64,000 nt of DNA. Source: Bacteroidota bacterium. GTDB taxonomy: Bacteria > Bacteroidota > Ignavibacteria > Ignavibacteriales > Ignavibacteriaceae. Position numbers and translations under genes: made by a program. Below the pieces are notes generated by a model. The model ran no database searches, was not told the origin of the DNA, and worked only from the letters and a program-made list of their open reading frames with translations. Positions 1 through 19,520 of this stretch are shown piece after piece (the first letter of the stretch is position 1; each line of letters starts with the position of its first letter). The stretch lies in NCBI GenBank assembly GCA_021824565.1, contig JAKAKL010000050.1:62001-126000 (forward strand). Direction: 5' to 3'.

Positions 1-409
1 CATTAATTGTATTATTCGTCGCTAATCCCGTGATATAAAGATTCTTAAATACTGCAACTGTACCTGCTCCATTAATAATGAATAGATAATACGGTAAAGA
101 CCCGTCTTGTAATACTCCAGATTGAATACATGGAGGTCTACCATTAGTGCCTAATACACCTATAACTTCGAAATTAGATCTAACAGTAGCTGGACCAAGC
201 CAAAGGTAAGTAGTGTCTAACGAAACAAGTTTATATACAGAATGTTGCTGTAATCCAGATGTAGTTGTGTCGCTGGTAATCACTTGGTCAATGCTGGGAC
301 CGTTTGCATAAACAACAAGCGTGTCATTCCCCGCAGCAATAATTTTACTAGGTATTATGAATAACACTAGCACTACTATTGCGGTTATGATTGTGGAGAT
401 TGTTCTCAT
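1..409 (-). CDS. Secreted protein, 3' part cut off by the window edge
   Basis: The complement reads from an ATG at 409 without a stop to base 1, giving about 136 residues of a longer protein. It starts with a charged residue, a hydrophobic stretch (residues about 5-20) and an Ala-Ala boundary, so a Sec signal peptide is likely. The mature part is rich in Thr, Val, Asn and Gly and looks like beta-strand repeat material, similar in style to the surface or beta-helix proteins of Ignavibacteria. I do not recognise a named domain. It lies 95 bp downstream of the TonB-dependent receptor on the same strand, so it may be the last visible gene of the sugar-utilisation operon. The function is unknown. 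Confidence 0.75.
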   Translation of the reverse strand, partial: MRTISTIITAIVVLVLFIIPSKIIAAGNDTLVVYANGPSIDQVITSDTTTSGLQQHSVYKLVSLDTTYLWLGPATVRSNFEVIGVLGTNGRPPCIQSGVLQDGSLPYYLFIINGAGTVAVFKNLYITGLATNNTIN

Positions 410-504: not shown

Positions 505-3435
505 TTAAAAATTCCAACTCAATCCAAGATGAGCCGTCATTCCATAACTTTGTTCAGATTCAGGCACTCCGCCTCCCTCGATAATGCTTACGTCATTTGC
601 GCTATTCATATTGTATATATCGCCAAATAATCCAACGCCTCGCCATGGTAATCCCTGCTTGAATGAAACATCCCAGCGAGAATATGCGGCAGTATAACTT
701 CTTATCTGAGGCCAAAAATTCGGTCCTGTAAATATGTTATCCTGATACAGCCATGACACTCTTATTGAGAATTCTTTGTAGTCTAAACCAACTGATATAT
801 TAACGATGTTATCTGGCTGGTATAACAATCTATCGGAGAATGTTGTATCAACATAATTTACTGTTCGACCATTGGAACTTATTTTTAGATATGGATATTC
901 TGCTTTGGAAAAAATATGAGAATAGTTAGCACCCAATACAAGCCCTGAAAGTATTCCAGGCAAATACCAAAAGTGTGTTTCCCAATCGACTTCTATTCCG
1001 TAATCGTTAATTACTGCTGAATCATTAACAGTGGTGTTAATCTGATAAGTTCCTGAAGGAGTTGTTGAACCTAAAAGACTATAAGGATAATACTGAATAG
1101 CATCTTTGCCTGAAACATAAAATGTCCATGGATAAATTAAATCACTAATATTTTTCCAAAATCCTCCAACCGTGAATAACCCTATGCTATTATCATAAAA
1201 CGATAAATATAAATCGTAATTAGTAGAATGAGTTGGTACTAGTTTAGAATTATTCCAAGAAATTGCCCCGGTTCCTACATCTATTCTCGGAATAATTGCA
1301 TTATAGTCAGGATATGCCAATGTGTTGCTGTAAGCTAATCTTACATCGAACCATAAGGAAGGTTTATACCTAATAGAAATATCCGGCAAATAATAGCCAT
1401 GATTCTGGACGACAGTTGTGTCATAAAAATTATAAGAACTTACCGCACTACGTGTTTCTATACCTCTTGCTCCGTTGTATGAGGTCTGAAGATTCTGGTA
1501 TCTTAAGCCGGGAATAAGAATTATTTCCGGGCCGATATTTATAACGGACATTAGATAAAATGCCGACTGGTTTTCATGACCAAAATAATTATACGTCGTA
1601 GATGCTAAAGCGTCGTGCCCGTAAGACTGCGTACCATGATTATTTGCAATATATTGTGCACTATCTTGCAGCAGTGTTGCCATTCGATCCAGCATACCAT
1701 AGTTTAGTGGTTCAACCATTTGATAATCACCGCCAAGAAATTTCCCGTAGCTAAAACTTTGATCAGTAAAGTATGTTATTGGAATTTTATATTTTACAGT
1801 GGCAGGTAGATTAAACCAATTAATTATTAGATCATTAACTACTCCTGAACCGCCATACTGAAGCCCTCCTCCGTCAAAGACATCCTGTTGATAATATCTT
1901 GACTGATATTGATACTTCCCACCAAATTTTATCTCCGCATTAACTAATTCTGAAAAGGTAATGTTTGTTTTAAAATCCAATGATCCCGTAATTACATCAG
2001 ATTTAGAGAAGTAACTATTAGAAGAGAGTAAATACAATATTGTATTTGAATAATCATAAGTGGCGGCTTTAGGTATAGCTATTGGGTTTATATTGTGTTT
2101 ATTACTGAATTGGTTGAGTCCTGTGCCAGCAGCCTGTAAAAATTGAATCGACCAATCATGCGGATCTTTTGTATCCGAATATGCGTTTGATAATTTAGCA
2201 TCAACTGAGAATAACGGAAATGAATTCTGAAATTCTAAACCATTTGTTACACTATTTCCAGTTCCGGCATATTTTCCGAGAGAATAAGTTATGTTATTAC
2301 TACTACCTCCAATTCCATAAATCATTTGTCTACTAATGTCTGTAGATAATCCTGAATTTAGAAAGTTTGTTAACTTTATTTTCCCTTCTGGTAATCTATA
2401 ATCCAATACAAGTGCACTATTCCTTCTTATTATATCACGTGGTATGTCCGAAAGCGTTAGGCTGTTGGTTATATAATCTACAAAATTGTTTGCCGCGGGA
2501 CCATAGTTTGCTCCCAATTCGTTGGATGTTAGATTTTCTCTTTCTATATCTAATTGAGCAAATACTCCAAATTTATCATCTAAAAATCTTTCACCATAAC
2601 TTGCAACATATTTATAGTTATTTAACTTATTATATGCATCTGACAAACTGTTATAGCCGCCCTGAAGTACTAAGCTTAATTGCGGAACATTAGGTTGACC
2701 TAATTTTGCTTCACGAATATCAAAATCTACTGTACCTCCAATAACGTTGGCATCCATATCAGGCGACACAGTTTTGTATACTTTTATACCATCTAACATG
2801 CTAGAAGATATCCCGCTTAAGTCTGTACTTCTATCATTAGGATTAGACGAAGCCATCTGTATTCCATCAAGAGTAATGTTATTAAACTTTGGGGCTAAAC
2901 CACGAATTACAACCTCAGTCCCTTCTCCGCCGTTTCTCAATACAGAAATTCCCGGTAATCTCCCAACCGATTCAGCCGCGTTTGCATCAGGTAATTCTTG
3001 AATTTTAGCAGCAGACACTACGTTGACTATTTGATCAGACGATAATTGTTGGTTTATAGCTTGAGTCTGACCGCTAGCTTGTGCTGTTACAACAATAGTT
3101 TTGCCTTTAACACCAACCGGGTCAAGAGAAAAATTTAATATCACATTGTTTCCTTCTCTTATAATGATATTCTTTTTCACTTGACCATACCCTATGTATG
3201 AAGCTCGAACAGTGTAAGATCCTTCAGGTACATTTTCAATTACGTATTTACCATTCATATCTGTCGCTGCACCCAGGCTTGTACCGACTAAAAGAATTGT
3301 CGCCCCAAAAAGTGGTTCACCTGTTGATGCATCTTTTGCAGTCCCACTAATACGAGTTCCTGTTGCAAACGAAGTCTCACAAAATAATGTTATAGCTAAA
3401 ATCAATGTACTTAGAATAGTCAAAATTCTAGGCAT
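505..3435 (-). CDS. TonB-dependent outer-membrane receptor with CarboxypepD_reg-like N-terminus
   Basis: The 976-residue protein has a signal peptide (about 1-24). A carboxypeptidase-regulatory-like beta-sandwich follows (about 28-110, with GTAKDASTGEPLFGA and the DMNGKYVIENVPEGSY turn). The plug domain is at about 135-245 (ELPDANAAESVGRLPGI and EVVIRGLAPKFNNITLDG), and a long barrel ends in the aromatic terminus WNF. This is the standard build for importers of oligosaccharides or chelates energised by TonB. The ATG is preceded by AAGGAAG at 6 bp. It follows the GH135-like glycosidase gene by 159 bp on the same strand, so it plausibly imports the products of that enzyme. No SusD-like lipoprotein is visible nearby. 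The substrate is inferred from context only. Confidence 0.93.
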   Translation of the reverse strand: MPRILTILSTLILAITLFCETSFATGTRISGTAKDASTGEPLFGATILLVGTSLGAATDMNGKYVIENVPEGSYTVRASYIGYGQVKKNIIIREGNNVILNFSLDPVGVKGKTIVVTAQASGQTQAINQQLSSDQIVNVVSAAKIQELPDANAAESVGRLPGISVLRNGGEGTEVVIRGLAPKFNNITLDGIQMASSNPNDRSTDLSGISSSMLDGIKVYKTVSPDMDANVIGGTVDFDIREAKLGQPNVPQLSLVLQGGYNSLSDAYNKLNNYKYVASYGERFLDDKFGVFAQLDIERENLTSNELGANYGPAANNFVDYITNSLTLSDIPRDIIRRNSALVLDYRLPEGKIKLTNFLNSGLSTDISRQMIYGIGGSSNNITYSLGKYAGTGNSVTNGLEFQNSFPLFSVDAKLSNAYSDTKDPHDWSIQFLQAAGTGLNQFSNKHNINPIAIPKAATYDYSNTILYLLSSNSYFSKSDVITGSLDFKTNITFSELVNAEIKFGGKYQYQSRYYQQDVFDGGGLQYGGSGVVNDLIINWFNLPATVKYKIPITYFTDQSFSYGKFLGGDYQMVEPLNYGMLDRMATLLQDSAQYIANNHGTQSYGHDALASTTYNYFGHENQSAFYLMSVINIGPEIILIPGLRYQNLQTSYNGARGIETRSAVSSYNFYDTTVVQNHGYYLPDISIRYKPSLWFDVRLAYSNTLAYPDYNAIIPRIDVGTGAISWNNSKLVPTHSTNYDLYLSFYDNSIGLFTVGGFWKNISDLIYPWTFYVSGKDAIQYYPYSLLGSTTPSGTYQINTTVNDSAVINDYGIEVDWETHFWYLPGILSGLVLGANYSHIFSKAEYPYLKISSNGRTVNYVDTTFSDRLLYQPDNIVNISVGLDYKEFSIRVSWLYQDNIFTGPNFWPQIRSYTAAYSRWDVSFKQGLPWRGVGLFGDIYNMNSANDVSIIEGGGVPESEQSYGMTAHLGLSWNF

Positions 3436-3594
3436 TTCATCTTCCTTATAATTTTATGTTATAAATTCATATTTGTTCATTTGTAATAATGACCTAAGTT
3501 ATGTTCATATTGATTGGTCACTATTATTATTCCAAAAGCTAAAACAAAACCGCTAAATGGATTAACAATATTTTTTCCTATAATCTATCTTAGC

Positions 3595-5298
3595 CTACTT
3601 TATTAGAACCATCTTCCTTGTTTCAACATAATTACCGACCCTTATTTGGTAAAAGTATATTCCGCTTGCTATCTCAGAACCGGTACCTGATGAATTAAAT
3701 ACAATACTGTATTTGCCGGCGGACTGCTCTTTATCAACAATTGTCTCAACCTCCTGACCGAGAACATTAAAAATTTTTAAAGTAACATATCCACTCTGTG
3801 GAATTTCATAGCTTATATTAGTACTTGGATTAAACGGGTTTGGATAATTCTGATTCAGTTGAAAATCTAATTTATTTATATTACTTCTTGTTACGCCAGT
3901 AGTAGAATTGTGTAACGTGTACTTATAGAACTCGTTCTTATAGTCCGAAGGATCTATTTCCATCAAAGTATATGGAGATACAGCACTGTTTACCTGAAAG
4001 ATTAGTCTCATAGTATTAGTATTTACAACAGTAAATAATTCTGATAAAGGCATGCTCATTTCAGTTCTATTACTATCTTCTGCGAAATTAAATCCGGAGA
4101 TTGGTTGCCATGACCAGTTAGCTCCGCCTGTCCCAGAATATTTATAAAGACTATTGTTTTCTATCATAAATTCGGCACCAATTGATGTGCTATCATTATA
4201 TCTATATCCTGTGCTGCTGTCATTGTCAGTATCTATGAATATATGATAGAAATAATTTGAAGAAAGAACACCGGCGACTTGGTAACTCAAATACAGATTT
4301 GATGTATCATTTGTCGCCCAAAAGTCGACATAGTCTGCATCCGGGTTAGGCGAGTCACCTACGCTGGCAGATGGGTTTGGATATATATTTAAGAATGGAA
4401 CATTGGACCAATCGTCAAAATTTCCATCTATGTTAATTAAGCTTTGTCCTCCACTGGATAACGAATCTATTCCTGTTATTAGATAATTACAAAAATCTTC
4501 AAAATAAAAAGGTAACGTGTCGTAGGGATTGGGAAGTATATCATTAGTGCAATAAATCCAGCCAACATTTGACAATGCAGCCTTATTCGCATAATTGACA
4601 TATTCATTGGCGTTAGCATTGTAAGTTATAATATAAAAATTATCCCTACTGTAGTTCTTATACCAGGCAGGAGGAACCCATGAATTAAATCCATTACTAT
4701 TTTCAAAAGTACATATTACATCTGCAATCCTTTTGCCGTTATAAAATAGATAGCTTGATATTTGATCAGCACCAGGATTTGTAACTACTAAAGCTGTCGA
4801 GTCTTTTTGTTTTATATAATTATAAAGTTGTGCATAATATGATTCATATCCAGTAACGTTCGCCTGTTCATCTATAAAAATTCCATTGATAGTCGGATAA
4901 AACGAATAGTATGAATTTATATCAGCTTCTACATTGGCAATTGGTCTAGTGCCGTATGAAGTATGCACATATCCAATTATGTAACCGCTATCTGCCTGTA
5001 GTTTGGTTATAGCTGTTTGATAGACAGGATCAAATTGAGAGCCTGGTCCGCTTTCAGGATTGGCAATTGCCCAAAGACGTCCAGGCATCTTAAGAGCCTC
5101 AGAATCTAAACGTGCCCAGTAGTCGTTTCCAGAGGGATAAAAATAAGCAGGTACCATAACCTTTAAATTGAGTGAATCGATGCCGGAGGTATTTTTTGCA
5201 TTTTGATTATCACTGTTTTGTGAACCATAAACAACAGACAAAGAAAGCGACGCGAATAAGAATATCATAGATAACTTTATTGGTAGTAATTTATTCAT
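3595..5298 (-). CDS. Secreted Spherulin-4/GH135-like glycoside hydrolase with DOMON/CBM9-like domain and T9SS tail
   Basis: The 567-residue protein has four parts: a signal peptide (about 1-25), a Spherulin-4-type TIM-barrel (about 44-275), a beta domain resembling DOMON/CBM9 (about 288-460, from INIDGNFDDWS), and a T9SS sorting tail (about 481-567, LNQNYPNPFNPSTNISY to the KMVLIK end). Characterised relatives of the first domain (fungal Sph3, GH135) cleave alpha-1,4-linked N-acetylgalactosamine polymers. The acidic pair D143-E144 in GIFIDEQAN and E199 in ICTFENSNGF sit 55 residues apart (E144 to E199), the spacing I recall for the catalytic residues of Sph3. The T9SS tail predicts export and surface anchoring. 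It lies 24 bp after kbaY in a galactosamine-type catabolic operon, which agrees with that substrate. An alternative is a related GH114/GH166 specificity. Confidence 0.85.
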   Translation of the reverse strand: MNKLLPIKLSMIFLFASLSLSVVYGSQNSDNQNAKNTSGIDSLNLKVMVPAYFYPSGNDYWARLDSEALKMPGRLWAIANPESGPGSQFDPVYQTAITKLQADSGYIIGYVHTSYGTRPIANVEADINSYYSFYPTINGIFIDEQANVTGYESYYAQLYNYIKQKDSTALVVTNPGADQISSYLFYNGKRIADVICTFENSNGFNSWVPPAWYKNYSRDNFYIITYNANANEYVNYANKAALSNVGWIYCTNDILPNPYDTLPFYFEDFCNYLITGIDSLSSGGQSLINIDGNFDDWSNVPFLNIYPNPSASVGDSPNPDADYVDFWATNDTSNLYLSYQVAGVLSSNYFYHIFIDTDNDSSTGYRYNDSTSIGAEFMIENNSLYKYSGTGGANWSWQPISGFNFAEDSNRTEMSMPLSELFTVVNTNTMRLIFQVNSAVSPYTLMEIDPSDYKNEFYKYTLHNSTTGVTRSNINKLDFQLNQNYPNPFNPSTNISYEIPQSGYVTLKIFNVLGQEVETIVDKEQSAGKYSIVFNSSGTGSEIASGIYFYQIRVGNYVETRKMVLIK

Positions 5299-5322
5299 GT
5301 CTTATCATCATTAAATTTTGAT

Positions 5323-6141
5323 TTAAATAGATATTATTTTTAACTTTTCGATAACTAGTTTCTTAACTAAAGCTATCGCTTCAGGAAAAGTTTTTCGCAA
5401 ATCAATTTCTTCGGTTTCCGTTAATATATTTTTCAAAGATTTTGTAAATGTATCTTTAATCTCCGTAGCAATATTTACTTTTACTATTCCCAGCTCTATT
5501 GCATGTTTCAAAGTTGATGCAGGAATGCCGGAGCCTCCATGCAGAACTAGATTAACATCCGTCAATTGCCTTATATCTTTCAAGCGGTCCAGATCGAGTT
5601 TCGGCTCGCCTTTATAAAAACCATGTTTCGAACCTATTGCAATGGCAAGAGCATCAACTCCTGTTTCATCAACAAACGCCTTAGCTTCCTCAGGCTTTGT
5701 GAACTTATCGCTTTCCAGTTCCTTGCCTAATTTTGGAACGCTTCCCAACTCAGCTTCGACATTAGCTCCGTATTTTTTTGCTAACTCAACTACTTCTTTA
5801 GTTATTTTAATATTTTCATCGAATGGTTTATCACTTGCATCAATCATGACTGAATCAAATCCAGCGTCAAGACATTTTTTTACCAATCCAATTTCATCGC
5901 AGTGATCTAAATGAAGCCATACATTAACTCCAAATTCTTCGGATATTGTTTTACCGATACAAACAGCGGTATTAAGCCCAATGTAATCAATTGAACTTTT
6001 AGTTAATTGAAGAATTACCGGCTGCTTCAATTCATTAGCAGCCAGAATAATACCTTTGCATGTCTCTAGGTTATAATAGTTAGCTGCAAGCAAAGCTTTT
6101 TTCTTCTGCCGAAAGATTTGGAATTGTTCTTGAAGTTTCAT
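5323..6141 (-). CDS. kbaY: Class II tagatose-1,6-bisphosphate aldolase (KbaY/GatY type)
   Basis: The 272-residue protein has the class II aldolase fold and length of KbaY/GatY. Motifs include HLDH at 77-80 (catalytic Asp 79, zinc ligand His 80), EAELGSV near 129-135, SKHG with zinc ligand His 173, and LHGGSG with zinc ligand His 201. It should cleave tagatose-1,6-bisphosphate into dihydroxyacetone phosphate and glyceraldehyde-3-phosphate in the cytoplasm. Its ATG overlaps the stop codon of the PfkB kinase gene as ATGA, so the two are translationally coupled. The presence of kbaZ in the same operon favours tagatose over fructose bisphosphate. A generic class II fructose-bisphosphate aldolase cannot be excluded from sequence alone. 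Confidence 0.88.
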   Translation of the reverse strand: MKLQEQFQIFRQKKKALLAANYYNLETCKGIILAANELKQPVILQLTKSSIDYIGLNTAVCIGKTISEEFGVNVWLHLDHCDEIGLVKKCLDAGFDSVMIDASDKPFDENIKITKEVVELAKKYGANVEAELGSVPKLGKELESDKFTKPEEAKAFVDETGVDALAIAIGSKHGFYKGEPKLDLDRLKDIRQLTDVNLVLHGGSGIPASTLKHAIELGIVKVNIATEIKDTFTKSLKNILTETEEIDLRKTFPEAIALVKKLVIEKLKIISI

Positions 6142-7091
6142 TTTGATTTATATCCAAATTTCTCTTTAGCTGTCTTCATGATACTCTGATAATTTGTGAA
6201 TGCAGTGGTTCCGCCAGCCGCCGTTGTATTTACAGCACCAATTAAATTTCCAAACTCCTGGCAACTTTCCGGTTCAGCGCCATTAATAAATTTAAAAATG
6301 AAACCCGCGTTGAAACTATCACCCGCACCTATAGCATCTACTACATTTTTATTCAAGAAAGGTTCTTTCATTGTTGACTTTCCTTTCTCATAAAGCAGCG
6401 AGCCTTTACCGCCCATCTTAACCGCAATCATATTTGAAACAGAAGAGAGTCTTTTTAGTGCATTTGAAATCGAATTTTCTTTTGTTAGATGGAGAATCTC
6501 CTGTTCGTTAGGAAGAAAAATATCCACATAAGGTAAAACTTTTTTATAGTCTAATTGCCATTTTTCCTCAGGGTCCCATTGCATATCAAACGAAGTAGTC
6601 ATGCTTAATTCCTTTGCCATTTTATACATTTTATCAACATCATTTCTAATTCCTGGCTGCAAATAGTATGAAGAAAAGTGCAAGTGCCTTGCCTTCTCAA
6701 GAGTTTTTCTTGTTATATCTTTGATAGTAAGTTTATTCATTGCGCCGGGATAAGTAACCATTGCTCTATCCTCAGCAAAATTCAAGACAATAGTCGCCCC
6801 GGTATTCGCAATTGAATCTTTGACTATTAGACTTACATCAACTCCTTTTTCAGTAAGCTTATCAATCACTAAGTCGCCGAAATAGTCATTGCCGATCCTT
6901 CCTAGAAATGCAACTTTGGCTCCGAGTGAACTTAGATTGCTTGCAAAGATTGCAGATGAACTTCCCAAAGTAAGTACCATGTTTTGAGCTAGCTTCTCCT
7001 TACCAATTTCCAGAAATGATTCTATATTATTCAAAATTAGATCAACATTAAGTTCGCCTACTACAACCACATCAAATTTTTTATTGTTCAT
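6138..7091 (-). CDS. PfkB-family sugar kinase, probable tagatose-6-phosphate kinase
   Basis: The 317-residue protein has the ribokinase/PfkB pattern. The N-terminal glycine-rich strand is VVVVGELNVD, a second signature is FLGRIGNDYFG (62-72), and the C-terminal signature VDAIGAGDSFNAGF carries the catalytic base Asp 258 and the anion hole. The most economical role in this operon is ATP-dependent phosphorylation of tagatose-6-phosphate to the 1,6-bisphosphate, between AgaS and KbaY/KbaZ. PfkB kinases are hard to assign by sequence, so a hexosamine kinase role is possible. That would fit the absence of any other kinase here. The gene overlaps the DMT permease gene upstream by 11 bp and kbaY downstream by 4 bp. 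Confidence 0.87.
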   Translation of the reverse strand: MNNKKFDVVVVGELNVDLILNNIESFLEIGKEKLAQNMVLTLGSSSAIFASNLSSLGAKVAFLGRIGNDYFGDLVIDKLTEKGVDVSLIVKDSIANTGATIVLNFAEDRAMVTYPGAMNKLTIKDITRKTLEKARHLHFSSYYLQPGIRNDVDKMYKMAKELSMTTSFDMQWDPEEKWQLDYKKVLPYVDIFLPNEQEILHLTKENSISNALKRLSSVSNMIAVKMGGKGSLLYEKGKSTMKEPFLNKNVVDAIGAGDSFNAGFIFKFINGAEPESCQEFGNLIGAVNTTAAGGTTAFTNYQSIMKTAKEKFGYKSK

Positions 7092-8007
7092 TTATTATTT
7101 CCTCTGAAATAGTCTGGGGTGAGTTAGTTAGTTCTTCCTGATCGCCGTACGTTAAAAATAAAATTGAAATAATAGCGATGATCATTCCAATTAGAACAAT
7201 TAACCCAGGGAATATTTTATAGATAGTTAAGGATAAAATAATCGTTATTACCGGTGCCACTGCATTTGTTAGCGGACTAACTATAAGCGCCTTACCATAA
7301 CGAAATGCATAAACAATTGTCAGTGCGCCAATAGCATTTAACATCTGAATTATTGCCGTTAAATAAGGTCCAGAAAATCCATAATTTATTTTTTCCGAGA
7401 AGTTTGTCATCATCAGCGCAACAGGTATAAGTAAAAGACCCGTTAAAGTCATATAGAAAAATATACTTTCGGCCTTCATAGTCTGATTTGCAGATTTCAT
7501 TATAAACGCTTGAAGCCCCCAAGCAACGAAAACTAATAAGGAGAGTATTATCCAAAGATATCCGTGAGTGATTGAATTAGTAGGAGACTGATAAGAAAGC
7601 AACGGTATAGCAATTAATGCAAATATAATTCCTGTCCACCCGTGCTTTGATGTCCTTTCTTTTAATAATATATATGATAATACTATTGTTATGACGGGAG
7701 ATAATGAAATAAATGGGAAGACTAAATAAGCCGGTCCTGATCTTAATGCTTCAAATAATATCAACTGTCCTCCCGCCCCGGTAAAACCAATTGCACATCC
7801 TAACAAGATTGATTTAATATCATGTTCTAATTTCCATCCGATAATTTTTAGAGCCACCAACGCAGGCGGTATCATAGTTAATGCCCAAACAACGTAGCCT
7901 AGAGTAGCTGGAAACCCAGCCTTTTCGGTTATTTCTATTAACGCTCCCCAAACTCCCCAAAAGACCGTTGTAATAATTGCATAAATCAACCAAGGTTTAC
8001 TTTTCAT
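7081..8007 (-). CDS. EamA/DMT-superfamily permease, candidate amino-sugar importer
   Basis: The 308-residue protein is almost entirely membrane-embedded, with about ten hydrophobic segments arranged as two EamA-like halves. The first starts near residue 5 with IYAIITTVFWGVWGALIE and the second near residue 148. The short motif LLKERTSKHGWTGI after helix 4 is typical of DMT transporters. It sits between kbaZ (ATGA overlap) and the PfkB gene (11-bp overlap), so it is co-expressed with galactosamine-6-phosphate catabolism. It is the only inner-membrane transporter in the locus, which makes it the candidate carrier for the released sugar. Export of a by-product would also fit the family, so the direction and substrate are inference. 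Confidence 0.85.
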   Translation of the reverse strand: MKSKPWLIYAIITTVFWGVWGALIEITEKAGFPATLGYVVWALTMIPPALVALKIIGWKLEHDIKSILLGCAIGFTGAGGQLILFEALRSGPAYLVFPFISLSPVITIVLSYILLKERTSKHGWTGIIFALIAIPLLSYQSPTNSITHGYLWIILSLLVFVAWGLQAFIMKSANQTMKAESIFFYMTLTGLLLIPVALMMTNFSEKINYGFSGPYLTAIIQMLNAIGALTIVYAFRYGKALIVSPLTNAVAPVITIILSLTIYKIFPGLIVLIGMIIAIISILFLTYGDQEELTNSPQTISEEIINEQ

Positions 8008-9326
8008 GAATTCACCCCGCTTGTAGCATAGTTATACTTGTCCAGAACTGTTGAAATTCTATTAGCTATTAATTCTTCTGGCAAGTTTTTAATTTCGCCA
8101 CTTTTTACAGCTTCAAATGATTCAGGTAAAAACTGACTTATTAATGTCAAGGGAATTTCTTCTAAAGAAAGATTTTGTAATAATTTTATTACTGAACTTT
8201 TTACGTTTCTATCATTCCAATAATATCTTATTCTATCACTTAAGCTGTATTTTCTCTTAAACTTTATTAAGCTGTCATCTTTTCCATGATAATATTTATT
8301 CCAATATTTCGGATTCTCTCTCATCTTTGAATCCAGCACACCTGACAAATTAGAAAGTTCAATTCTATCCGAAATTTCAAAAAGTTCTTTCTCTATCATT
8401 TCCAATGCAAATAGTGCCTCTCTAAATTCATACGTTAACCAAGGACCTACTTTTAATATTGTAAAATGGTCTTCAACCATTTCACGCAAGGACTCTTTAA
8501 GTTGAAAGTCTGTAGAATGTGCCTCATATACAAAATTTTCATGAGCTTCAATTTGATTTTTGAGTTCAACAGTATTTCGTCTATCATAGCTAAAAATATT
8601 ATCGTCTCCGAATTCAACCCCTGGCTGGACGACAATTGCTATTACTCTGCTCCAAGTTTCTGCGATACCATAATCAGCAAATGCTTTTTTCGTTTGAGAA
8701 AGAGTTTCATTAACTTCTTCAGGAGTAGTCACTCTCATTGAATTGTTCTGTTCCTTGGCACCTCCTGGAGTAGGAACATCACTTCCAATTATGTAAACCG
8801 GTAGTTGAAATTGATTGCTTCTGCTATTTACTACTTCTTCTGCTGCTTTACAAAGTAATGCAGTTCTTTCGGCAATAATACTCGAGTCAAGCGGACTATC
8901 GGTCTGATCATCGTCAGCGCATTTCATTGTAACATCAAGATGTATTTTCTTATATCCGGCATTTAAATAGGCTTTAACTTGCTCTTTTGCTTTTTCGAGC
9001 GCAGAATTCGCCGGTTCATCATGCCATACATTAGGACCTAAATGATCACCTCCTAAATAAAGATTCGTAATTGAGAAATTTGTTTGATCAGCCAACCGAA
9101 AAGCTAATTCCTTGAAAATTTGCGGTGTCATTCCTGTATATCCGCCAAACTGGTCAACTTGATTCGATGTTGATTCTATCAATAACAAATTGTCATGTTT
9201 TTTGGCATTTAACATCGCAGCTTTTATTACGAATTCATTTGCAGAACAAATGGAAGTAAGACCAATTGGATTTCCTGATTTATGCTCCTTGATTAATGAC
9301 AATATTTTGTTTTCGCCAGCTATCAT
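8004..9326 (-). CDS. kbaZ: Tagatose-bisphosphate aldolase accessory subunit, KbaZ/GatZ family
   Basis: The 440-residue protein matches the KbaZ/GatZ/AgaZ family in length and hallmark motifs: ESTSNQVDQFGGYTGMTP near 50-67, LGGDHLGPNVWH near 91-102, and IGSDVPTPGGA near 184-194. In enterobacteria this subunit stabilises and activates the KbaY or GatY aldolase. Some family members are reported to act as 4-epimerases that interconvert tagatose-6-phosphate and fructose-6-phosphate, so the protein may be an enzyme in its own right here. Its start overlaps the agaS stop and its stop overlaps the permease start, both as ATGA. These overlaps place it second in a tightly coupled operon. Confidence 0.9.
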   Translation of the reverse strand: MIAGENKILSLIKEHKSGNPIGLTSICSANEFVIKAAMLNAKKHDNLLLIESTSNQVDQFGGYTGMTPQIFKELAFRLADQTNFSITNLYLGGDHLGPNVWHDEPANSALEKAKEQVKAYLNAGYKKIHLDVTMKCADDDQTDSPLDSSIIAERTALLCKAAEEVVNSRSNQFQLPVYIIGSDVPTPGGAKEQNNSMRVTTPEEVNETLSQTKKAFADYGIAETWSRVIAIVVQPGVEFGDDNIFSYDRRNTVELKNQIEAHENFVYEAHSTDFQLKESLREMVEDHFTILKVGPWLTYEFREALFALEMIEKELFEISDRIELSNLSGVLDSKMRENPKYWNKYYHGKDDSLIKFKRKYSLSDRIRYYWNDRNVKSSVIKLLQNLSLEEIPLTLISQFLPESFEAVKSGEIKNLPEELIANRISTVLDKYNYATSGVNS

Positions 9327-10501
9327 TTATTTTCTTTATTGTAAGGATAAATGTTTACACCTTGAACGACTCTGTGGATCATACCACTTTCAGAGGGACT
9401 ATCTGGCTTTAAGCCAAAATACATTGATTTATAAAAGCCTAATATTTGAGCAGGCAGTACAGACACAACTGTAAGAAATTTCTCATTTAATTTATCTTTT
9501 CCATCCCCTAGTATAATTTTTAATTCAACGTTTGCATCAGGTATATAATGCTCCATTACCCCAATTGAATAAACCGGTTTTCTCCCTTCGGAAATTGCTT
9601 GCACTAAATCGATTTCATATTTGTTTACATACTTATCGTTTGAGAATAGAAAGGTTATTAGAGATTTTTCATTTATTACTGCTTTTGGACCATGCCTGAA
9701 TCCAAGGAAGGTATCGTATTTGCAAATAACTTTTCCGTCCGTTAATTCCTGCAATTTTAATTGTGACTCCCTTGCTATTCCTTTCATTAAGCCTGAGCCT
9801 AAGAAAACTGCTCTTTCAAATTCCAATCCAGATATTTTTTTTAAGTCTCCCAAATACTCATTAAATATTTTTCTTGCATATCCACTTAATAGGGAAACCT
9901 CCGATTTATTTTTATCAATTGAATCTATATCTGAAATTAAAAGACCTGATAATAACATCGATGTAAAGCTGCTGGTCATAGCAAGACTTTTATCGTCGGC
10001 TTCTGGCGGCAGGAAGAAAATTAAATGGTCTTTATCTTTTACTGTTTCAACGAGTTTACTTCTCTTGCTGCAAGTAATAACAATATGAGTTACCTTGTGC
10101 GAAAGTTTATCCGCTAGTTGTACTGCTTTTGAACTTTCTGGACTATTGCCAGAACGAGCAAATGAAACTAATAGAATATCTTTGTCGCTTTGAAAATATA
10201 ACTCCGGATGAGTGATTAAATCGGTAGTAGCTACAGCTTTTGTAACTAAGCCTGTAGCGATCTGAAAAGGACCTTCCAATACATCACCTATAAAAGCAGA
10301 GGTTCCGGCACCAGTAAGTATAACATGCAAGTTTTTATTTATCTTGGCTTTTCCTAGCGCACTTTCAAAATCCGATTTTCTTGACTTTATTAATTCCCAA
10401 ACCTTAATCCATATATCCGGTTGAGATAATATTTCTAGGGAAGTATATTCTCCTCCATCTAGCCCTGGTTTTATTTCCTTTAGTAACAAATTATTTTTCA
10501 T
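9323..10501 (-). CDS. agaS: AgaS-type galactosamine-6-phosphate deaminase/isomerase (SIS domains)
   Basis: The 392-residue protein carries two sugar-isomerase (SIS) domains. The first contains ILTGAGTSAFIGDVLEG (about 61-77) and FARSGNSPES, the Ser/Thr loop that binds the sugar phosphate. The second contains AVFLGSGLMKGIARES and FLGFRHGPKAVI. The length agrees with AgaS, which converts galactosamine-6-phosphate to tagatose-6-phosphate and ammonia, rather than with GlmS-type or NagB-type enzymes. It is the first gene of the leftward operon and overlaps kbaZ by 4 bp. The combination with kbaZ, kbaY and a DeoR regulator is the classical aga arrangement. The deacetylase (agaA/nagA) normally found with it is absent from this window. 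Confidence 0.9.
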   Translation of the reverse strand: MKNNLLLKEIKPGLDGGEYTSLEILSQPDIWIKVWELIKSRKSDFESALGKAKINKNLHVILTGAGTSAFIGDVLEGPFQIATGLVTKAVATTDLITHPELYFQSDKDILLVSFARSGNSPESSKAVQLADKLSHKVTHIVITCSKRSKLVETVKDKDHLIFFLPPEADDKSLAMTSSFTSMLLSGLLISDIDSIDKNKSEVSLLSGYARKIFNEYLGDLKKISGLEFERAVFLGSGLMKGIARESQLKLQELTDGKVICKYDTFLGFRHGPKAVINEKSLITFLFSNDKYVNKYEIDLVQAISEGRKPVYSIGVMEHYIPDANVELKIILGDGKDKLNEKFLTVVSVLPAQILGFYKSMYFGLKPDSPSESGMIHRVVQGVNIYPYNKENK

Positions 10502-10530
10502 TATTTATATTTAAATATAATTTATAAATA

Positions 10531-10615
10531 CTTTCGTTAGCAATATATTGATTTTATTTTACCTTGTCAATAGGGAAAAATAAAATATTTTGCTTTCATT
10601 TCCTTACATTCATTA
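10531..10615. promoter_or_regulatory. Divergent agaS/deoR promoter region with candidate DeoR operators
   Basis: The 214-bp gap between agaS and the divergent regulator gene contains TTTCGTTA at 10532-10539. A second block has TTTCATTTCCTTA from 10594 and TTCATTA at 10609-10615. Repeated TTTCRTTT steps resemble what is known of AgaR/GlpR-type DeoR operators. Nothing but position and motif likeness supports this, and no clear promoter boxes could be assigned. Confidence 0.35.
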
Positions 10616-10715
10616 AAAATTGTATGCCTAAGACGTACATTATCTTTTAAATCTTTGTGTTTTTATATATAATTACTTATTTTATCTTCTGAATTTATTA
10701 GAAAGTTACTATCGT

Positions 10716-11504
10716 ATGACTAATTTTAATATTGAAGATTCCGGCAACACCCTTCAGCGCAGAACCAAAATTATGGAATTATTGGAAACTTCAGGGATGG
10801 TAAAGGTAAGTGACTTATCAAAACTGTTCGAAGTAAGCGATGTTACTATAAGGAATGATTTAGCACAATTAGAAAATAAAGGTTTTTTAATTAGAACAAG
10901 AGGAGGGGGAATTAAAACGCAGCGAACTGGTATTGATTATAAGCTGACCGAAAAAGCTAAGAAGCACTCTGTTGAAAAACAAGCAATTGGTAAGAAAGCT
11001 GCTGAATTAATAAAAGACGGTGATACAATAATTATTGATTCTGGAACTACAACTTTGGAGTTAGCGAAAAATCTTTCTGACATAAAAGAATTAATCGTTA
11101 TAACAAATGCTTTAAATATAGCTAGTCAGTTAGTCGATTACGAATTGATAAAGGTAATTATGCTTGGAGGTATGTTAAGGCATAATTCATTATCATTAAT
11201 TGGCCCCATCGCTGAAAATAATGTGAAAGATTTTTTTTGTGATAAGTTGTTCATAGGTGTAGATGGCATTGACTCTCATTATGGAATTACAACGCCAAAC
11301 GCTGAAGAAGCACATTTAAACAAGTTAATGATCGAGATTTCAAAAGAAGTAATAATATTAGTAGATTCAAGTAAATTTCTACGCAGAAGTTTTGCGCTTA
11401 TTGCACCCGTGTCAAAAATAAATACGGTGATAACAGATAAAAATATTCCTCAGGAAGAATTGATAAACTTACAAAACCAAGGAGTCAAAGTTATATTGGC
11501 TTAA
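10716..11504 (+). CDS. DeoR-family transcriptional regulator of the amino-sugar operon (AgaR-like)
   Basis: The 262-residue protein has an N-terminal DeoR winged helix-turn-helix (about 15-70, with VSDLSKLFEVSDVTIRNDLA). It is followed by a DeoR C-terminal sensor domain (about 75-255, with GDTIIIDSGTTTLELAKNL and IGPIAENNVKDFFCDKLF). Such regulators are usually repressors released by a phosphorylated sugar intermediate. The gene diverges from agaS across 214 bp, the classic position for control of its neighbour operon, and tagatose-6-phosphate or galactosamine-6-phosphate would be the expected ligand. The ribosome-binding site is weak (AGAAAG). An internal Met at residue 20 is a possible alternative start but would cut into the winged-helix region. 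Confidence 0.9.
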   Translation: MTNFNIEDSGNTLQRRTKIMELLETSGMVKVSDLSKLFEVSDVTIRNDLAQLENKGFLIRTRGGGIKTQRTGIDYKLTEKAKKHSVEKQAIGKKAAELIKDGDTIIIDSGTTTLELAKNLSDIKELIVITNALNIASQLVDYELIKVIMLGGMLRHNSLSLIGPIAENNVKDFFCDKLFIGVDGIDSHYGITTPNAEEAHLNKLMIEISKEVIILVDSSKFLRRSFALIAPVSKINTVITDKNIPQEELINLQNQGVKVILA

Positions 11505-12654: not shown

Positions 12655-15324
12655 TTATAGCTTAGACATAAATGATAATGCATTAGTAAATTGAGGCGAA
12701 TAGTTTGCTAAGTGTTTTTTGATTTTCTTCAATCTACTTGGACAGAACTTAACCCAAATATTATAAGCTTCCTCAATATTCAATTTTGTCTTTTCAAAGT
12801 CACCTAATTTATAATATGTGTCGGCTAACCAAAGTAGACTATAACCATAATTTACCTTGTCATGTCTATTTTTACCTTTTTCTAAATACTTATTAGATTT
12901 TGAACAATATTTTAAGCTATTGTTATATTCATTTTTTAAATAATAGCATCTACTAATATTACCAACATCGGCAGATATATCATCTGAATCATTACTCAAG
13001 GGATCCCATATATCAATTTTATCCAATGAGGTTTTTTGTAAGAAGAACTCTAGTGCTTCATCAACATTTCCATAATCACGATTAGAAAGAGCTTGATTAT
13101 AATAAATTTCATTAGAAACCGATTCACCCTTTTCGGTAATTTTTTTTATTACATCATGAGAGAAGTTAATAGCATCTGAAAATCTATTTTGAAACCATAG
13201 ACTATAGGTCATGATTTCAGAGTAGAAAATGAAATCTTTTATGGTTGATAAGGTCTTAGAAAAAGATTCTAATAGCAGATTTACTTTTGCAAATTCATCT
13301 TGATTTAGAAGTATAGTAATATATGATGAATATATAGCTGGGAATTCTCTATTATTTTTTATTTCTAAATCATCGAAATTTAGACCTTTGAAAACATTCT
13401 CACATAATTCAATAAATTTGACATCCTCACCATATTTTAAGAGGGGATCTGACAATTTATAAAGATATTTTAGAGCTTCATTATACGATTTGTTTTCTAT
13501 TGCTATCTCAGTGCATTCTATAAAATCATCAATTTTAGGAGTTGATTCATCATATAAATTCATTATTACAATAAGTTGATTCCAATCCACTAAGGACTTT
13601 AATATTTTTGCGGCATAAGTATTCGTTTTCGTATGCGGTAACGTTTCTTTTATTTTTAATCTAACTATAGGATGCAAATCATAGTGTGTTTCACCCTCCT
13701 TATCTAATTCTATTATTAATCTTAATTTCAGGAGAGTATTAATTACTTTTGAACATTTTTGATATGTTAGGGAAGAAACTTTTTCAATCTTTCGTAAAGT
13801 TGGAGGACGTGTAAATGTACCAACTATGTTTAGGATTTCTTTCTCATTCTTATTTAGATTTTCCCAGATGGAATTTAATAGATGAACTTTTAATGCTGAA
13901 GTTTGTTTTGATATTAATGTATTTATTTGTTCCGTTGAAAGTCGATTATTTCTTAGCTGTCCAAATATTAGATTAAGCCATAGTGCATGTCCGTTTGTTT
14001 TATAATGAATATTTTTTATAATATCATCATACCCGTTATTTATGTTCAAATTAAATTTTTTTGCTAATTCCATAGACTCTTCAAATGATAAACCTTGTAT
14101 AGGTATTTCAATAAATGAAAAATGATGATCGATGATACTGGATCTACATGTAAAAAGGACATAACTATTAGTAAGCTTACTAGTTATAGAATCGAATAAA
14201 AATTTAAGATGCCCAGTAAATATAGGTTTGTCTTTATCTACAAATGCATCAACATTATCAAAAACAACAAAGCAATTGATGTTATTTAATATGTCTAGAA
14301 ACCGGTTAATTGTGTCCTTTATATTTTCTTCAGCATACATTGTTTTTTTATGCGCGCCGTCTGTAATATATTCTAATATTCCCAACAATTTTTCATGAAA
14401 TGGAGTTTCTTCATCTTTGCAATCAGCCCATGAAATCCTTTGAAAATTTCTGAAATTTGATTCATTACTTGAAAATAATTTATATATTTTTGCAGCTAAT
14501 GAAGACTTACCTTCACCACCAAAACCAGTAATGGCTGCCACCCGAATTGTTGGATTACGCAATTTTGAAATTAATTCTGAACGTCCAACAAAGAAATCAA
14601 TATTGGGTGGATGGTCAAGTCTATTTTTGTTTACTAAATTAAAAGGCATTATACTTTGTGAAATTTGAGTAGAAGAAACAATAATCTTCTTAATTAAATC
14701 AAATATCAAATTAAAATTTAAAAAATCAATATCCACAAATGGCGGAACATCGTTTTGAATATATTCTGCAAATTGATTTTTTGACATAGCTACGTTTTCG
14801 GATTTTTCATTGAAAACATCACTATCTAAAATTTTGGATGCAGTCGGTAAAGTAAAGCCTTTTAATTTATTATGATTCCCATAGCTAATGTTTTTTAGAG
14901 TCTTATGTCTACCACTTTTTTCATCAAATTCAGAAGAACAAAATAACCTTTTATGATTTATATCCTCTGAATATAATACCTTGTCGCTATAATAAAACTC
15001 AATGCTTAGGCTGCATTCTTTTAATTTGCGATTTTCTGGTATGGGTATACTAAATGAAAAAACATTATTACCCCATTCTTTAAAAGAGCCATCTTCTGAA
15101 TTAACTTTTGAAATGATACTTTTATTATCTCGGTCGAAAATAAATATATTAACTTTATCATTAGGAACAGTTGCACGGGCATGGCATAAGTCATATAGTT
15201 TATCATCGCCTCTATCCGAATCTTGCTCCCAATATTCTATGTCTAAAATAATACCAAGTTTTGCCTGTGCTTTTTTTATGTGTTTCCAATCAGTTTGACC
15301 TTCTGTAAAAATAATAGCTTGCAT
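12655..15324 (-). CDS. TOPRIM-like / STAND NTPase / TPR protein, candidate antiviral sensor-effector
   Basis: The 889-residue protein has three parts. Residues 1-215 resemble a TOPRIM/OLD-like nuclease: a strand ending TEGQTDW (Glu 8) and a second acidic strand FIFDRDN (Asp 64, Asp 66). Residues about 240-560 are an NB-ARC/STAND ATPase with VGRSEL, Walker A GFGGEGKSS (267-275), Walker B FVVFDNVD (352-359), a sensor Arg in FTCRSS (394) and a GxP-like NGHALWL. Residues about 570-889 are helical TPR-like repeats, including LEFFLQ and GYSLLWLADTYYKLGDF. This is the effector-switch-sensor build of Avs-type STAND defence proteins. It starts 14 bp after hsdR behind a GGAG site, so it is the last gene of the restriction operon. 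The TOPRIM assignment is weaker than the ATPase one. Confidence 0.82.
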   Translation of the reverse strand: MQAIIFTEGQTDWKHIKKAQAKLGIILDIEYWEQDSDRGDDKLYDLCHARATVPNDKVNIFIFDRDNKSIISKVNSEDGSFKEWGNNVFSFSIPIPENRKLKECSLSIEFYYSDKVLYSEDINHKRLFCSSEFDEKSGRHKTLKNISYGNHNKLKGFTLPTASKILDSDVFNEKSENVAMSKNQFAEYIQNDVPPFVDIDFLNFNLIFDLIKKIIVSSTQISQSIMPFNLVNKNRLDHPPNIDFFVGRSELISKLRNPTIRVAAITGFGGEGKSSLAAKIYKLFSSNESNFRNFQRISWADCKDEETPFHEKLLGILEYITDGAHKKTMYAEENIKDTINRFLDILNNINCFVVFDNVDAFVDKDKPIFTGHLKFLFDSITSKLTNSYVLFTCRSSIIDHHFSFIEIPIQGLSFEESMELAKKFNLNINNGYDDIIKNIHYKTNGHALWLNLIFGQLRNNRLSTEQINTLISKQTSALKVHLLNSIWENLNKNEKEILNIVGTFTRPPTLRKIEKVSSLTYQKCSKVINTLLKLRLIIELDKEGETHYDLHPIVRLKIKETLPHTKTNTYAAKILKSLVDWNQLIVIMNLYDESTPKIDDFIECTEIAIENKSYNEALKYLYKLSDPLLKYGEDVKFIELCENVFKGLNFDDLEIKNNREFPAIYSSYITILLNQDEFAKVNLLLESFSKTLSTIKDFIFYSEIMTYSLWFQNRFSDAINFSHDVIKKITEKGESVSNEIYYNQALSNRDYGNVDEALEFFLQKTSLDKIDIWDPLSNDSDDISADVGNISRCYYLKNEYNNSLKYCSKSNKYLEKGKNRHDKVNYGYSLLWLADTYYKLGDFEKTKLNIEEAYNIWVKFCPSRLKKIKKHLANYSPQFTNALSFMSKL

Positions 15325-15338
15325 ATAAGATACTCCAC

Positions 15339-18300
15339 TTATGCGATAGGTTTCCTAAAATTTATTTTATCCAGTATTCCTTCATACACTTCCTTAACCA
15401 AATGTTTGGAGGCGATGTCTTTGAATTCGTCGTCGTTCATTAGTTTGGTGAAGATTTCTTCGTTGCCGTCCATACGCTCTACGAAGAGGCTGACTAATAG
15501 TTTGTCAAATACGTATTTGAAGTTGTCTAATGAGTTTGCTTGTGCTGCTTCTTGAAGTTCTTCGTTTGAAATTGCTGTTTCTTTTACTTGATCAAAGAAT
15601 AATTGGTCTGCAATGGTAAAGCTTGTGCCAAATCTGTCGTTTAATATATCAATCAGTGAGGAAAGCAGAACGTTTTCATCCGGCGTACCGGTGCCGACCT
15701 CTTGAGGACCATATATTACTTGCGGCTCGCCGGATTTCAAATCTATTTTACCTTCAGCTATTTTTTGCAGACGGTAATATTTTAATGCGACGTCTTCTCC
15801 AAGCTCGTATCCTTCTTGCTCACGGCGCGGAAGCTTGCGCAATAGATTCCTTAAATAGATATTTAATTTTTCCAATTGTGAATCGTTATAGGGGATTATT
15901 TGGGAGAGGAAGGAATATAAATTACGGAATTCAACAAGCTGCTTCTTTATTGTCTGCTTTTCTTCCTCTGTCTTTTCTTTGAACCGCTCAACAGCGGGAT
16001 CGAGGATTGCATTAAGCTTTTTGTGCTCGACATGTTTCAAATCTTGTTTGCTGCTTAACCATATATTACAAAACTCATCAACTTCATTTTGAAAGAATAT
16101 TTTCCATTCCATAATAGTATACTCAAGCTGATATAGAAGCTGCGAATCTGTCAACTCGTCAAATTTTGTTTCTTCATAGTAGGGCTTAAAGGAGTTAAAA
16201 ATTTCTTCACGCTCGTTTACGAAGTCTAAAACAAAAGTATCTGTTTTGCCCGGGGCAAATCTGTTAAGGCGGGAGAGTGTTTGAACTGCTTGTACACCGG
16301 ATAAACGCTTATCAACATACATTGTATGCAGCAATGGCTGGTCGAAGCCGGTTTGATATTTTTCGGCAACGATTAAAACTTGATATTCATAAGATTCAAA
16401 TTTGTCCGGAAGCTCCTTTTCTTTTATACCATTGTTCATCCCTACTTCGGTATAGGAAACATTTGGAATCTTATCATCTTCTACTGTACCGGAAAAAGCA
16501 ACAAGCGCTTTTATGCCGGTATAACCTTTTTCCTTAATATAAGCATCAACAGCTTGCTTATAACGAACAGCATGAAGACGGGACGAAGTAACAATCATTG
16601 CTTTTGCCCTTCCGCCTATTTTGCTCATTGTAGACTTCCGGAAGTGCTCTACCATTACTTCAACTTTTTGTCTTAGGTTATAAGGATGGAAGCTGACAAA
16701 ACGAGCTAGAGCTTTTGCGGTTTTGCGTCTTGGAACATTAGGGTCTTTTTCAATTGATTTAATTAATCTGTAATAAGTTTTATACGTGGTGTAATTTTCC
16801 AGAACGTTTAAGATAAAACCTTCTTCAATTGCTTGACGCATACTGTAAAGATGAAACGGAGATTCTCCATTTTCACCGGGTTCATCGAAAACGGCTTTTG
16901 TCTTAAACTTTGGTGTTGCAGTAAAAGCATAAAAACTGATGTTGGGCTGTTTCCGTTTCGATGCCATTTCTTTTATAATTTTAGCCTTGGCATCTTCAGA
17001 TAAATTTCCTTCCTCCATCTCAAGAATTTGTTCAGCTACAACAGATTCAATACCTTCTTTGTTCAATATCCTTTTGAGTTCGGTTGCAGCTTCACCGGAT
17101 TGGGAGCTATGAGCTTCATCTACTATAACAGCAAATTTTTTCCCTTCCGTTGAGAAGCTTAAATCCTTACCGTCTTTTTTTGAAATCTTCTCTATGGTTT
17201 CAGTAATAAAAGGAAATTTCTGCAATGTGGATACAATAATTGGAACGCCGGAGGAAAGAGCTTTTACAAGCTGCTCGGTATCTTCATCAATTTTCTGAAC
17301 CACTCCTTGTTTATGCTCAAACTGATAGATAGTATCTTGAAGCTGAGTATCAAGAACTTTTCTATCTGTAATTACAATTACGGAATTAAATATCTTTTCA
17401 TCTTTATCATTATGAAGGCTGGCAAGGCGATAGGAAAGCCAGGCAATGGAATTAGACTTTCCGCTACCGGCAGAATGTTGAATCAAATAATTATGTCCGG
17501 AGCCGTTAACTTTGGAATTAGAGATTAACTTACGAACACAATCAAGCTGATGATACCGAGGGAAAATAAGTAACTCTTTCTTTTCCTTAAATACACCCTT
17601 TTCGGTATAAATTTTTTTCTCAGCTATTTCCAGATGAAGGTAACGGGCAATCAAATCGAGAAGGCTATCCTTGGTAAGAACATTTTCCCAAAGGTAGCCG
17701 GTTCTATAATCCATGTCTGCTGCGGGCGGATTGCCGGCGCCGAGATTAAATCCTTTATTAAAAGGAAGGAAGTGAGTTGAATCGCCGGAAAGCTTTGTTG
17801 TCATGTAGACTTCTTCCGTATCAACAGCAAAGTGAACGAGAGTGCGCTTCTTAAATTGAAAAATAAGTTCACGTGGGTCGCGGTCCTTTTTGTATTGATG
17901 CTGCGCGTTTTTTACCGTTTGACCGGACAGCGGATTTTTAAGCTCAAGCGTAACAAGGGGTATGCCGTTTATTGATAATACCACATCAAGCGAACGGTTA
18001 GGATGATTATTGCTGTAGTGAACTTGACGGATTATTTTAACAATGTTTTTATTGTAATCATTCCATGAATCGGGATTAAGGTTCGTATTTGGCTTTGAGT
18101 ACATAAGCTTAAAGTTTTTACCGAAGAACTTGAAGCCATGGCGAAGTACGAAGAGCGAACCCTTTACATCGAGTTCTTTTGATAGTGCTGAGAGAAGCGA
18201 GTCTTCCGCTTTTGCGCCGTAATATTCGTGTACCGATTTCCAATATGTTGGTTGAGAAGATTTAAGAAATTCTATTACGTCTTTTGAAAAGAGAGCCAGG

Positions 18301-18401: not shown

Positions 18402-18410
18402 ATTACTTTT

Positions 18411-19424: not shown

Positions 19425-19520
19425 AAATGCCTCACACTTATTGAATTAAACTTTAGATTCCAATGCATATTAAGAATGATAAAACTATGGTTTTAATTGT
19501 TCATCTCCAGATTGCAAAAA

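Follow-up and report, generated by a model that had tools for sequence, protein, structure and literature searches.

We analysed a 64,000-nucleotide stretch from an Ignavibacteriaceae member of the Bacteroidota (GCA_021824565.1, contig JAKAKL010000050.1, positions 62,001 to 126,000; hereafter the window, G000:C3:62001-126000 of a 4.6 Mb assembly). It contains the right-hand part of a cassette-led gene array that probably constitutes an AgaR-controlled polysaccharide utilisation locus (PUL) for an alpha-linked polymer of galactosamine (GalN) or N-acetylgalactosamine (GalNAc), such as a Pel-like matrix or fungal galactosaminogalactan. The sequences show directly which genes are present and to which families they belong, the active-site residues, the secretion tails and the conserved linkage. 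The array comprises 15 leftward genes on the same strand over about 24 kb, extends past the left edge of the window and has AgaR encoded divergently beside it. The genes follow the order AgaS, KbaZ, DMT permease, PfkB, KbaY, SPH1, TonB-dependent receptor, a beta-helix protein with a type IX secretion system (T9SS) tail and SPH2, then amidohydrolase a, a 745-amino-acid (aa) GH36 protein, an 877-aa GH36-like protein, a Na+:solute symporter, amidohydrolase b and a secreted 691-aa protein. Neighbouring genes within the five-gene aga cassette (agaS, kbaZ, DMT, pfkB and kbaY) overlap by 4-11 bases, indicating tight coupling. The gap from kbaY to SPH1 is 24 bases, and no intergenic gap exceeded about 200 bases where the array continues left of the window (L003 DNA read). 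An earlier note made from the sequence alone had described an eight-gene series, and the genes it named were intact open reading frames (ORFs) that each matched their family. The locus proved larger than described, with seven more genes left of the window including a second GH135 gene and the GH36 gene, and the eighth "secreted protein" of that series was confirmed, although most of its gene is beyond the window edge.

SPH1 and SPH2 belong to GH135. Both exceeded the Pfam Spherulin4 (PF12138) cut-off of 30.2 bits more than fourfold, SPH1 with 143.6 bits (E 9.5e-42) and SPH2 with 139.3 bits, and Sph3 (5d6t, 5c5g) was the sole solved relative of either. The active site of Sph3 contains Asp-166, Glu-167 and Glu-222, and SPH1 D143, E144 and E199 match these residues in motif and spacing. 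Por_Secre_tail was found in SPH1, SPH2 and the beta-helix protein and SprA was found in the genome, as expected of T9SS cargo. The TonB receptor was of the TonB-Xanth-Caul type (TIGR01782, 328.5 bits against a cut-off of 310), and its homologues, 50-66% identical, adjoin GH135 in other loci. No SusD was recognised among the array ORFs, so the SusC/SusD pair used to define a Bacteroidetes PUL was not found; an outer-membrane transporter, secreted glycosidases, catabolic enzymes and a regulator do lie together, as PUL clustering requires. A GH135 search of phage records gave distant matches only: Virus Rctr41k (KX853513.1) and Rothia phage Spartoi (MK061416.1) each encode a GH135-like protein with about 30% identity to SPH1.

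The 745-aa GH36 protein had its best PDB matches in 8x1b and 9awt/9ayu (E about 1e-53). The latter two are titled A-type blood alpha-D-galactosamine galactosaminidase, and the alignment letters of 8x1b are nearly identical. Nine active-site residues have been listed for the galactosaminidase FpGalNase (PMC11762096). Eight of them are kept in the array protein (W317, D346, D347, W387, K461, D463, C513 and D532, but not Y464), with the K-x-D and W387 correspondences read by eye as the HMMER alignment placed a gap inside the K-x-D motif. C513 and D532 are two of the three FpGalNase residues that are not conserved with alpha-galactosidases (PMC11762096), and the core residues, these two among them, were invariant in 11 GH36 homologues from related loci. 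This residue match predicts that the GH36 enzyme removes terminal alpha-galactosamine, a product that the AgaS route could use without a deacetylase. The 877-aa protein was distantly related to GH36 (hhalign probability 97, E 1e-10), and its PDB matches were alpha-galactosidases.

The cassette itself resembles the tagatose-6-phosphate pathway. AgaR passed its NCBIfam cut-off (296 bits against 260), and homologues 47-67% identical lie beside the aga cassettes of other genomes. The best PDB relatives of AgaS were the putative tagatose-6-phosphate ketose/aldose isomerases 3odp, 3i0z and 3c3j (E 1e-80 to 1e-62). KbaY passed the ketose-bisphosphate aldolase cut-off and contains the motifs LDHC, GSKHG and LHGGSG. 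PfkB reached no NCBIfam equivalog cut-off. Homologues of the DMT permease, 56-76% identical, were present in nearly every related cassette examined. We also counted GAAAG/CTTTC, the motif of proteobacterial AgaR, in eight homologous agaR/agaS intergenic regions with 20 bases trimmed from each end. Twelve occurrences were seen compared to 3.5 expected, and none of 2000 dinucleotide shuffles reached 12. The motifs are a candidate AgaR operator and are treated as a lead only, because the consensus is that of proteobacterial AgaR and the regions are interrelated.

Neighbourhoods were compared across 164 genomes of the order Ignavibacteriales. GH135 was found in six of them. In Stygiobacter (G144, L013/L025), which belongs to another family, AgaR and an AgaS-KbaZ-DMT-PfkB series lacking KbaY are followed by a 503-aa secreted protein, a TonB receptor, a beta-helix protein, GH135, the 691-aa protein and GH36. 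Stygiobacter electus, an Ignavibacteriales species with a named strain (09-Me), bears this homologous locus. The same-genus relatives G013 and G020 have the GH135, receptor, beta-helix, GH36, 691-aa, 877-aa and symporter genes, and KbaZ was absent from both genomes. In G020 the genes after this set encode a GHMP kinase resembling galactokinase, a nucleotidyltransferase and a ROK regulator, and the G013 stretch examined ends in the symporter gene. In a third congener, G023, GH135 adjoins nagB and nagA. The receptor and/or the beta-helix protein, plus GH36, were retained on GH135 contigs L018, L019, L020 and L024. GH135, the receptor and the beta-helix protein thus travel together, and their catabolic partner varies among amino-sugar-type routes. 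The kinase, nucleotidyltransferase and ROK genes, which come after the 877-aa and symporter genes, form an alternative monosaccharide set (L011, L071, L037), and it adjoins the aga genes in G163. The expectation that the glycosidase and receptor would be conserved with the aga genes was borne out in Stygiobacter and not in the three congeners, which pair GH135 with other sugar genes.

KbaZ was found in 14 of the order genomes and DUF4832 in 16, with an overlap of 11 (hypergeometric P 4e-11, disregarding shared ancestry). Counted by genus, DUF4832 occurred in 6/8 KbaZ genera compared to 11/68 (P 1e-4). DUF4832 occurs in Gram-positive pel operons (PMC7112168), and SIR_1591, a DUF4832 protein of Streptococcus intermedius, has hydrolase activity and breaks up aggregates that depend on Pel (PMC12345266). 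Three KbaZ genomes lacked DUF4832: that of the window and Stygiobacter, both with GH135, and G022, in which the contig ends in a secreted GHL10-like protein. GH135 or DUF4832 was therefore present in 13 of the 14 KbaZ genomes. In the flanks available, AgaR and AgaS-KbaZ-DMT-PfkB-(KbaY) are followed by T9SS proteins and a TonB receptor; in most cases a DUF4874-DUF4832 protein and a CBM9-like protein are among the T9SS proteins. DUF4832 lies directly after the cassette, with at most one beta-helix gene between, in G081, G082, G087, G088, G154 and G156, and within about 10 kb of it in G163; in G114 and G155 the locus is cut by contig ends in a manner compatible with this pattern. G163 carries a bridging locus in which the 877-aa and 691-aa proteins and the aga genes occur together. 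The neighbourhood pattern goes beyond chance, since further genomes of the order also have related aga cassettes next to secreted T9SS proteins.

Similar sets were found in the phylum outside the order. About 40 kb of G260 encodes SusC/SusD-like proteins, GH36, DUF4832, both amidohydrolase types, AgaS, a KbaZ-like protein, PfkB, KbaY, DMT and AgaR, and G303 carries GH36, KbaY, PfkB, AgaS, AgaR, DUF4832 proteins, SusC/SusD-like proteins and DMT. In G491 and G419, the sampled genomes outside the order with a strong KbaZ match, GH36 and amidohydrolase a lie within about 10 kb of KbaZ, as does the 503-aa protein in G419. SusC/SusD-like genes were read by eye in the related loci L111-L113. One locus off the usual pattern, L114 (G212:C40:72000-91900), places a DUF4874-DUF4832 gene amid genes of glycosyltransferase, flippase and chain-length type, which suggests that some members of the DUF4832 family serve polymer synthesis.

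Two secreted families recur in these loci. The 691-aa family is conserved in GH135 loci and also in the G163 aga locus. It had no noteworthy Pfam match and no PDB match, and its structure prediction from four sequences was too poor for use (predicted local distance difference test, pLDDT, 31.8). The 503-aa family (L025:3063-4574; homologues in L087-L093 and L110) likewise had no Pfam or PDB match, and a single-sequence prediction was equally unusable (pLDDT 34.6). It was found in eight of the order genomes, all with KbaZ (P 3e-10, again disregarding shared ancestry), and its gene adjoins GH36 in six of the eight. A NodB-type deacetylase was considered for the 503-aa protein from its DD and HGVGHEH motifs, but alignment to a true NodB domain gave no significant score and a PDB profile search returned nothing relevant. 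By analogy with a known enzyme pair discussed below, it is a guess that it could be a deacetylase partner of GH36.

In the pathway that we infer, the two GH135 enzymes and the beta-helix protein would reach the cell surface through T9SS and the polymer would be cut there to oligosaccharides, and the TonB receptor would import these into the periplasm. There the GH36 alpha-galactosaminidase, together with the secreted 877-aa, 691-aa and amidohydrolase proteins, would release single sugars, and the DMT permease (or the Na+ symporter) would carry galactosamine to the cytoplasm. Galactosamine would then be phosphorylated and converted by AgaS to tagatose-6-phosphate, which after a further phosphorylation to tagatose-1,6-bisphosphate would be split by KbaY/KbaZ to triose phosphates. 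This scheme would require two kinase steps, with one PfkB in the array. N-acetylated units would require the genomic NagA (acting on GalNAc-6-phosphate) or another deacetylase; own-genome checks, made family by family, placed a NagA over cut-off elsewhere in the genome, at C5. In the same genome, L078 (G000:C5:17500-37000) carries nagB, nagA, chitinase-like and phosphorylase-like genes and a gene for a T9SS beta-helix protein that is a paralogue (48% identity) of the one in the array. The earlier proposal that secreted galactosaminidases feed the aga pathway gained strong comparative support from the GH36 gene in the array, the DUF4832/GH135 co-occurrence and the similar sets in the phylum; GH135 itself is not specific to aga loci.

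Several observations weigh against this PUL assignment. AgaS (TIGR02815 agaS_fam, 329 bits against 529) and KbaZ (TIGR02810, 541.8 against 568.8) were clear matches that fell below their cut-offs, and KbaY fell below those of the tagatose-specific aldolase equivalogs (242.6 against 443.6 bits). No GalNAc-6-phosphate deacetylase was recognised and no galactosamine kinase was identified in the locus. SPH2 reads D, G, E, with Gly at the Sph3 Glu-167 position, and the GH135 of G023 reads D, C, E at the three positions, suggesting that both active sites may be altered. In three congeners GH135 lies beside non-aga sugar genes (GHMP kinase/nucleotidyltransferase/ROK or nagA/nagB). The co-occurrence P values, genus count excepted, disregard shared ancestry, and several genomes are fragmented. 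The substrates of the characterised relatives also differ. Native Pel consists mostly of GalN-GalNAc repeats, and Sph3, which is specific for poly-GalNAc, yielded no products when given native Pel of P. aeruginosa (PMC9135694). The substrate of FpGalNase is galactosamine after de-N-acetylation (PMC11762096). Combining the two activities in one chain therefore needs a mixed polymer or a deacetylase. The target may be more acetylated or more mixed than native Pel, or bacterial GH135 may differ from Sph3. Either of the polymers that the earlier note had named, Pel and galactosaminogalactan, may be the target.

The same genes could instead degrade a different GalN/GalNAc glycan, such as an O-antigen, a cell-wall glycopolymer or a mucin-type glycan, and not a matrix polymer of linear alpha-1,4-linked galactosamine. 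FpGalNase acts on the terminal alpha-galactosamine of a branched glycan (PMC11762096), GH36-type loci without nearby GH135 or DUF4832 exist (for example L109), and the 691-aa, 877-aa and amidohydrolase proteins may have other specificities. However, GH135 and, via SIR_1591, DUF4832 are tied to alpha-1,4-GalNAc polymers, and one or the other accompanies KbaZ in all but one genome of the order, making this explanation unlikely. It is very improbable that the glycosidase and receptor genes form an operon of their own that is unrelated to the aga cassette and adjoins it by accident. Same-genus relatives do have the GH135 module without aga genes, and in one relative the cassette is followed by a different secreted TIM-barrel-like protein, but the cassette/GH135 pairing recurs with AgaR and the permease in Stygiobacter, T9SS protein and TonB receptor genes come after the cassettes throughout the order, and the short kbaY-SPH1 gap also argues against separate operons.

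Sph3 is encoded in the fungal galactosaminogalactan biosynthesis cluster and PelA in the pel operon, so GH135 could, as in these producers, trim or release the bacterium's own exopolysaccharide with the aga genes recycling the sugars. Against this, the array has no synthase genes, and a TonB receptor, a repressor, catabolic genes and T9SS-exported enzymes are grouped in one same-strand array; we regard a role in production as scarcely credible. Pel biosynthesis by the bacterium was rejected, as the best PelF match in the genome, which lies elsewhere, was below the cut-off (52.7 against 100 bits).

A PUL for a galactosamine polymer would differ from each system to which we compared it. The Escherichia coli aga/gam cluster shares AgaR, AgaS and the tagatose-6-phosphate route, and itself uses phosphotransferase system (PTS) import and the AgaA deacetylase; it is not known to encode extracellular depolymerising enzymes. 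The Shewanella GalNAc pathway (agaP, omp-Aga, agaK, agaA-II, agaS, agaO; PMC2996990) is alike in its AgaS route, TonB-dependent receptor and non-PTS permease. Unlike that pathway, the present locus has T9SS-exported GH135, an FpGalNase-like GH36, a DMT permease, KbaY with KbaZ and PfkB and a likely polymer source, and neither AgaA-II nor AgaK was recognised in it. Aspergillus Sph3 shares its family and the Asp/Glu/Glu motif with SPH1, but is a fungal biosynthetic membrane enzyme, whereas SPH1 is bacterial, T9SS-tailed and encoded in a catabolic array. With the Flavonifractor plautii pair FpGalNAcDeAc/FpGalNase the locus shares the GH36 core residues, C513 and D532 among them. GH36 of Melioribacteraceae-type loci adjoins the secreted 503-aa protein, a possible deacetylase, resembling the F. 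plautii pair; however, the 503-aa family has no detectable homology to known deacetylases and is missing from the genome of the window. In most relatives the place of GH135 next to the aga cassette is taken by DUF4832, the domain of SIR_1591. SIR_1591 is encoded in a Pel production operon, whereas many Ignavibacteriales DUF4832 proteins have T9SS tails and catabolic genes as neighbours.

We found no published Pel or galactosaminogalactan utilisation locus in open papers, a search that most subscription journals fell outside. It is conceivable, with slightly more to be said against than for it, that these arrays form an undescribed class of Bacteroidota loci for eating galactosamine matrix polymers. 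In such a class two unrelated endo-hydrolases, GH135 and DUF4832, would be exchanged around a conserved GH36 alpha-galactosaminidase, as would two or more monosaccharide routes (aga, or GHMP kinase with nucleotidyltransferase), and the 691-aa and 503-aa proteins would be new enzyme families, one possibly a polymer deacetylase. If true, bacteria would consume galactosamine biofilm matrices beyond dispersing them, which would hint at the fate of galactosamine polymers in sediments and aquifers and give a genomic handle on matrix-degrading enzymes (GH135, DUF4832, GH36 and two unclassified families). The named strain of Stygiobacter electus makes the idea testable.

Table 1. Features of the array and its regulator. 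Plain coordinates are window positions; others carry the prefix of the sequence to which they refer.
Feature	Coordinates	Strand	Match or remark
AgaR-type DeoR-family repressor	10716..11504	+	NCBIfam AgaR; divergent from array
agaR/agaS intergenic regulatory region, candidate AgaR operator	10502..10715		GAAAG/CTTTC motifs, TTGACA promoter-like box
AgaS-type SIS protein, predicted galactosamine-6-phosphate deaminase/isomerase	9323..10501	-	Pfam SIS
KbaZ/GatZ-type tagatose-1,6-bisphosphate aldolase subunit	8004..9326	-	Pfam GatZ_KbaZ-like E 2.5e-171
EamA/DMT permease, predicted inner-membrane galactosamine importer	7081..8007	-	Pfam EamA E 3.3e-25
PfkB-family sugar kinase, predicted tagatose-6-phosphate or galactosamine kinase	6138..7091	-	Pfam PfkB E 2.9e-50
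KbaY-type class II tagatose-1,6-bisphosphate aldolase	5323..6141	-	Pfam F_bP_aldolase E 5.6e-87
SPH1, secreted GH135 (Spherulin-4)	3595..5298	-	CBM9-like middle (by eye), T9SS C-terminal tail
TonB-dependent receptor	505..3435	-	TIGR01782; CarboxypepD_reg-like N-terminus
T9SS-tailed secreted beta-helix-like protein	5' part 1..409, on to G000:C3:60661; L003:16661-18409	-	
Left-of-window span of array (beta-helix gene onward)	G000:C3:48174-62409		
SPH2 (GH135)	L003:15417-16583		
Secreted amidohydrolase a	L003:14123-15220		PF04909
GH36 galactosaminidase-like, 745 aa	L003:11836-14073		
GH36-like, 877 aa	L003:9200-11833		
Na+ symporter	L003:7399-9045		
Amidohydrolase b	L003:6280-7329		
Secreted 691-aa protein	L003:4174-6249		

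Beyond agaR, window positions 12655-23065 hold a type I restriction-modification set consisting of HsdM (20906-23065), HsdS (19521-20909) and HsdR (15339-18401), with an Mrr-like/PDC-M36A gene (18411-19424) within it. The region also encodes an NB-ARC NTPase (12655-15324), the first 216 residues of which match the C-terminal portion of PADLOC RT-Toprim models. It is possible that the whole region is a composite defence island.

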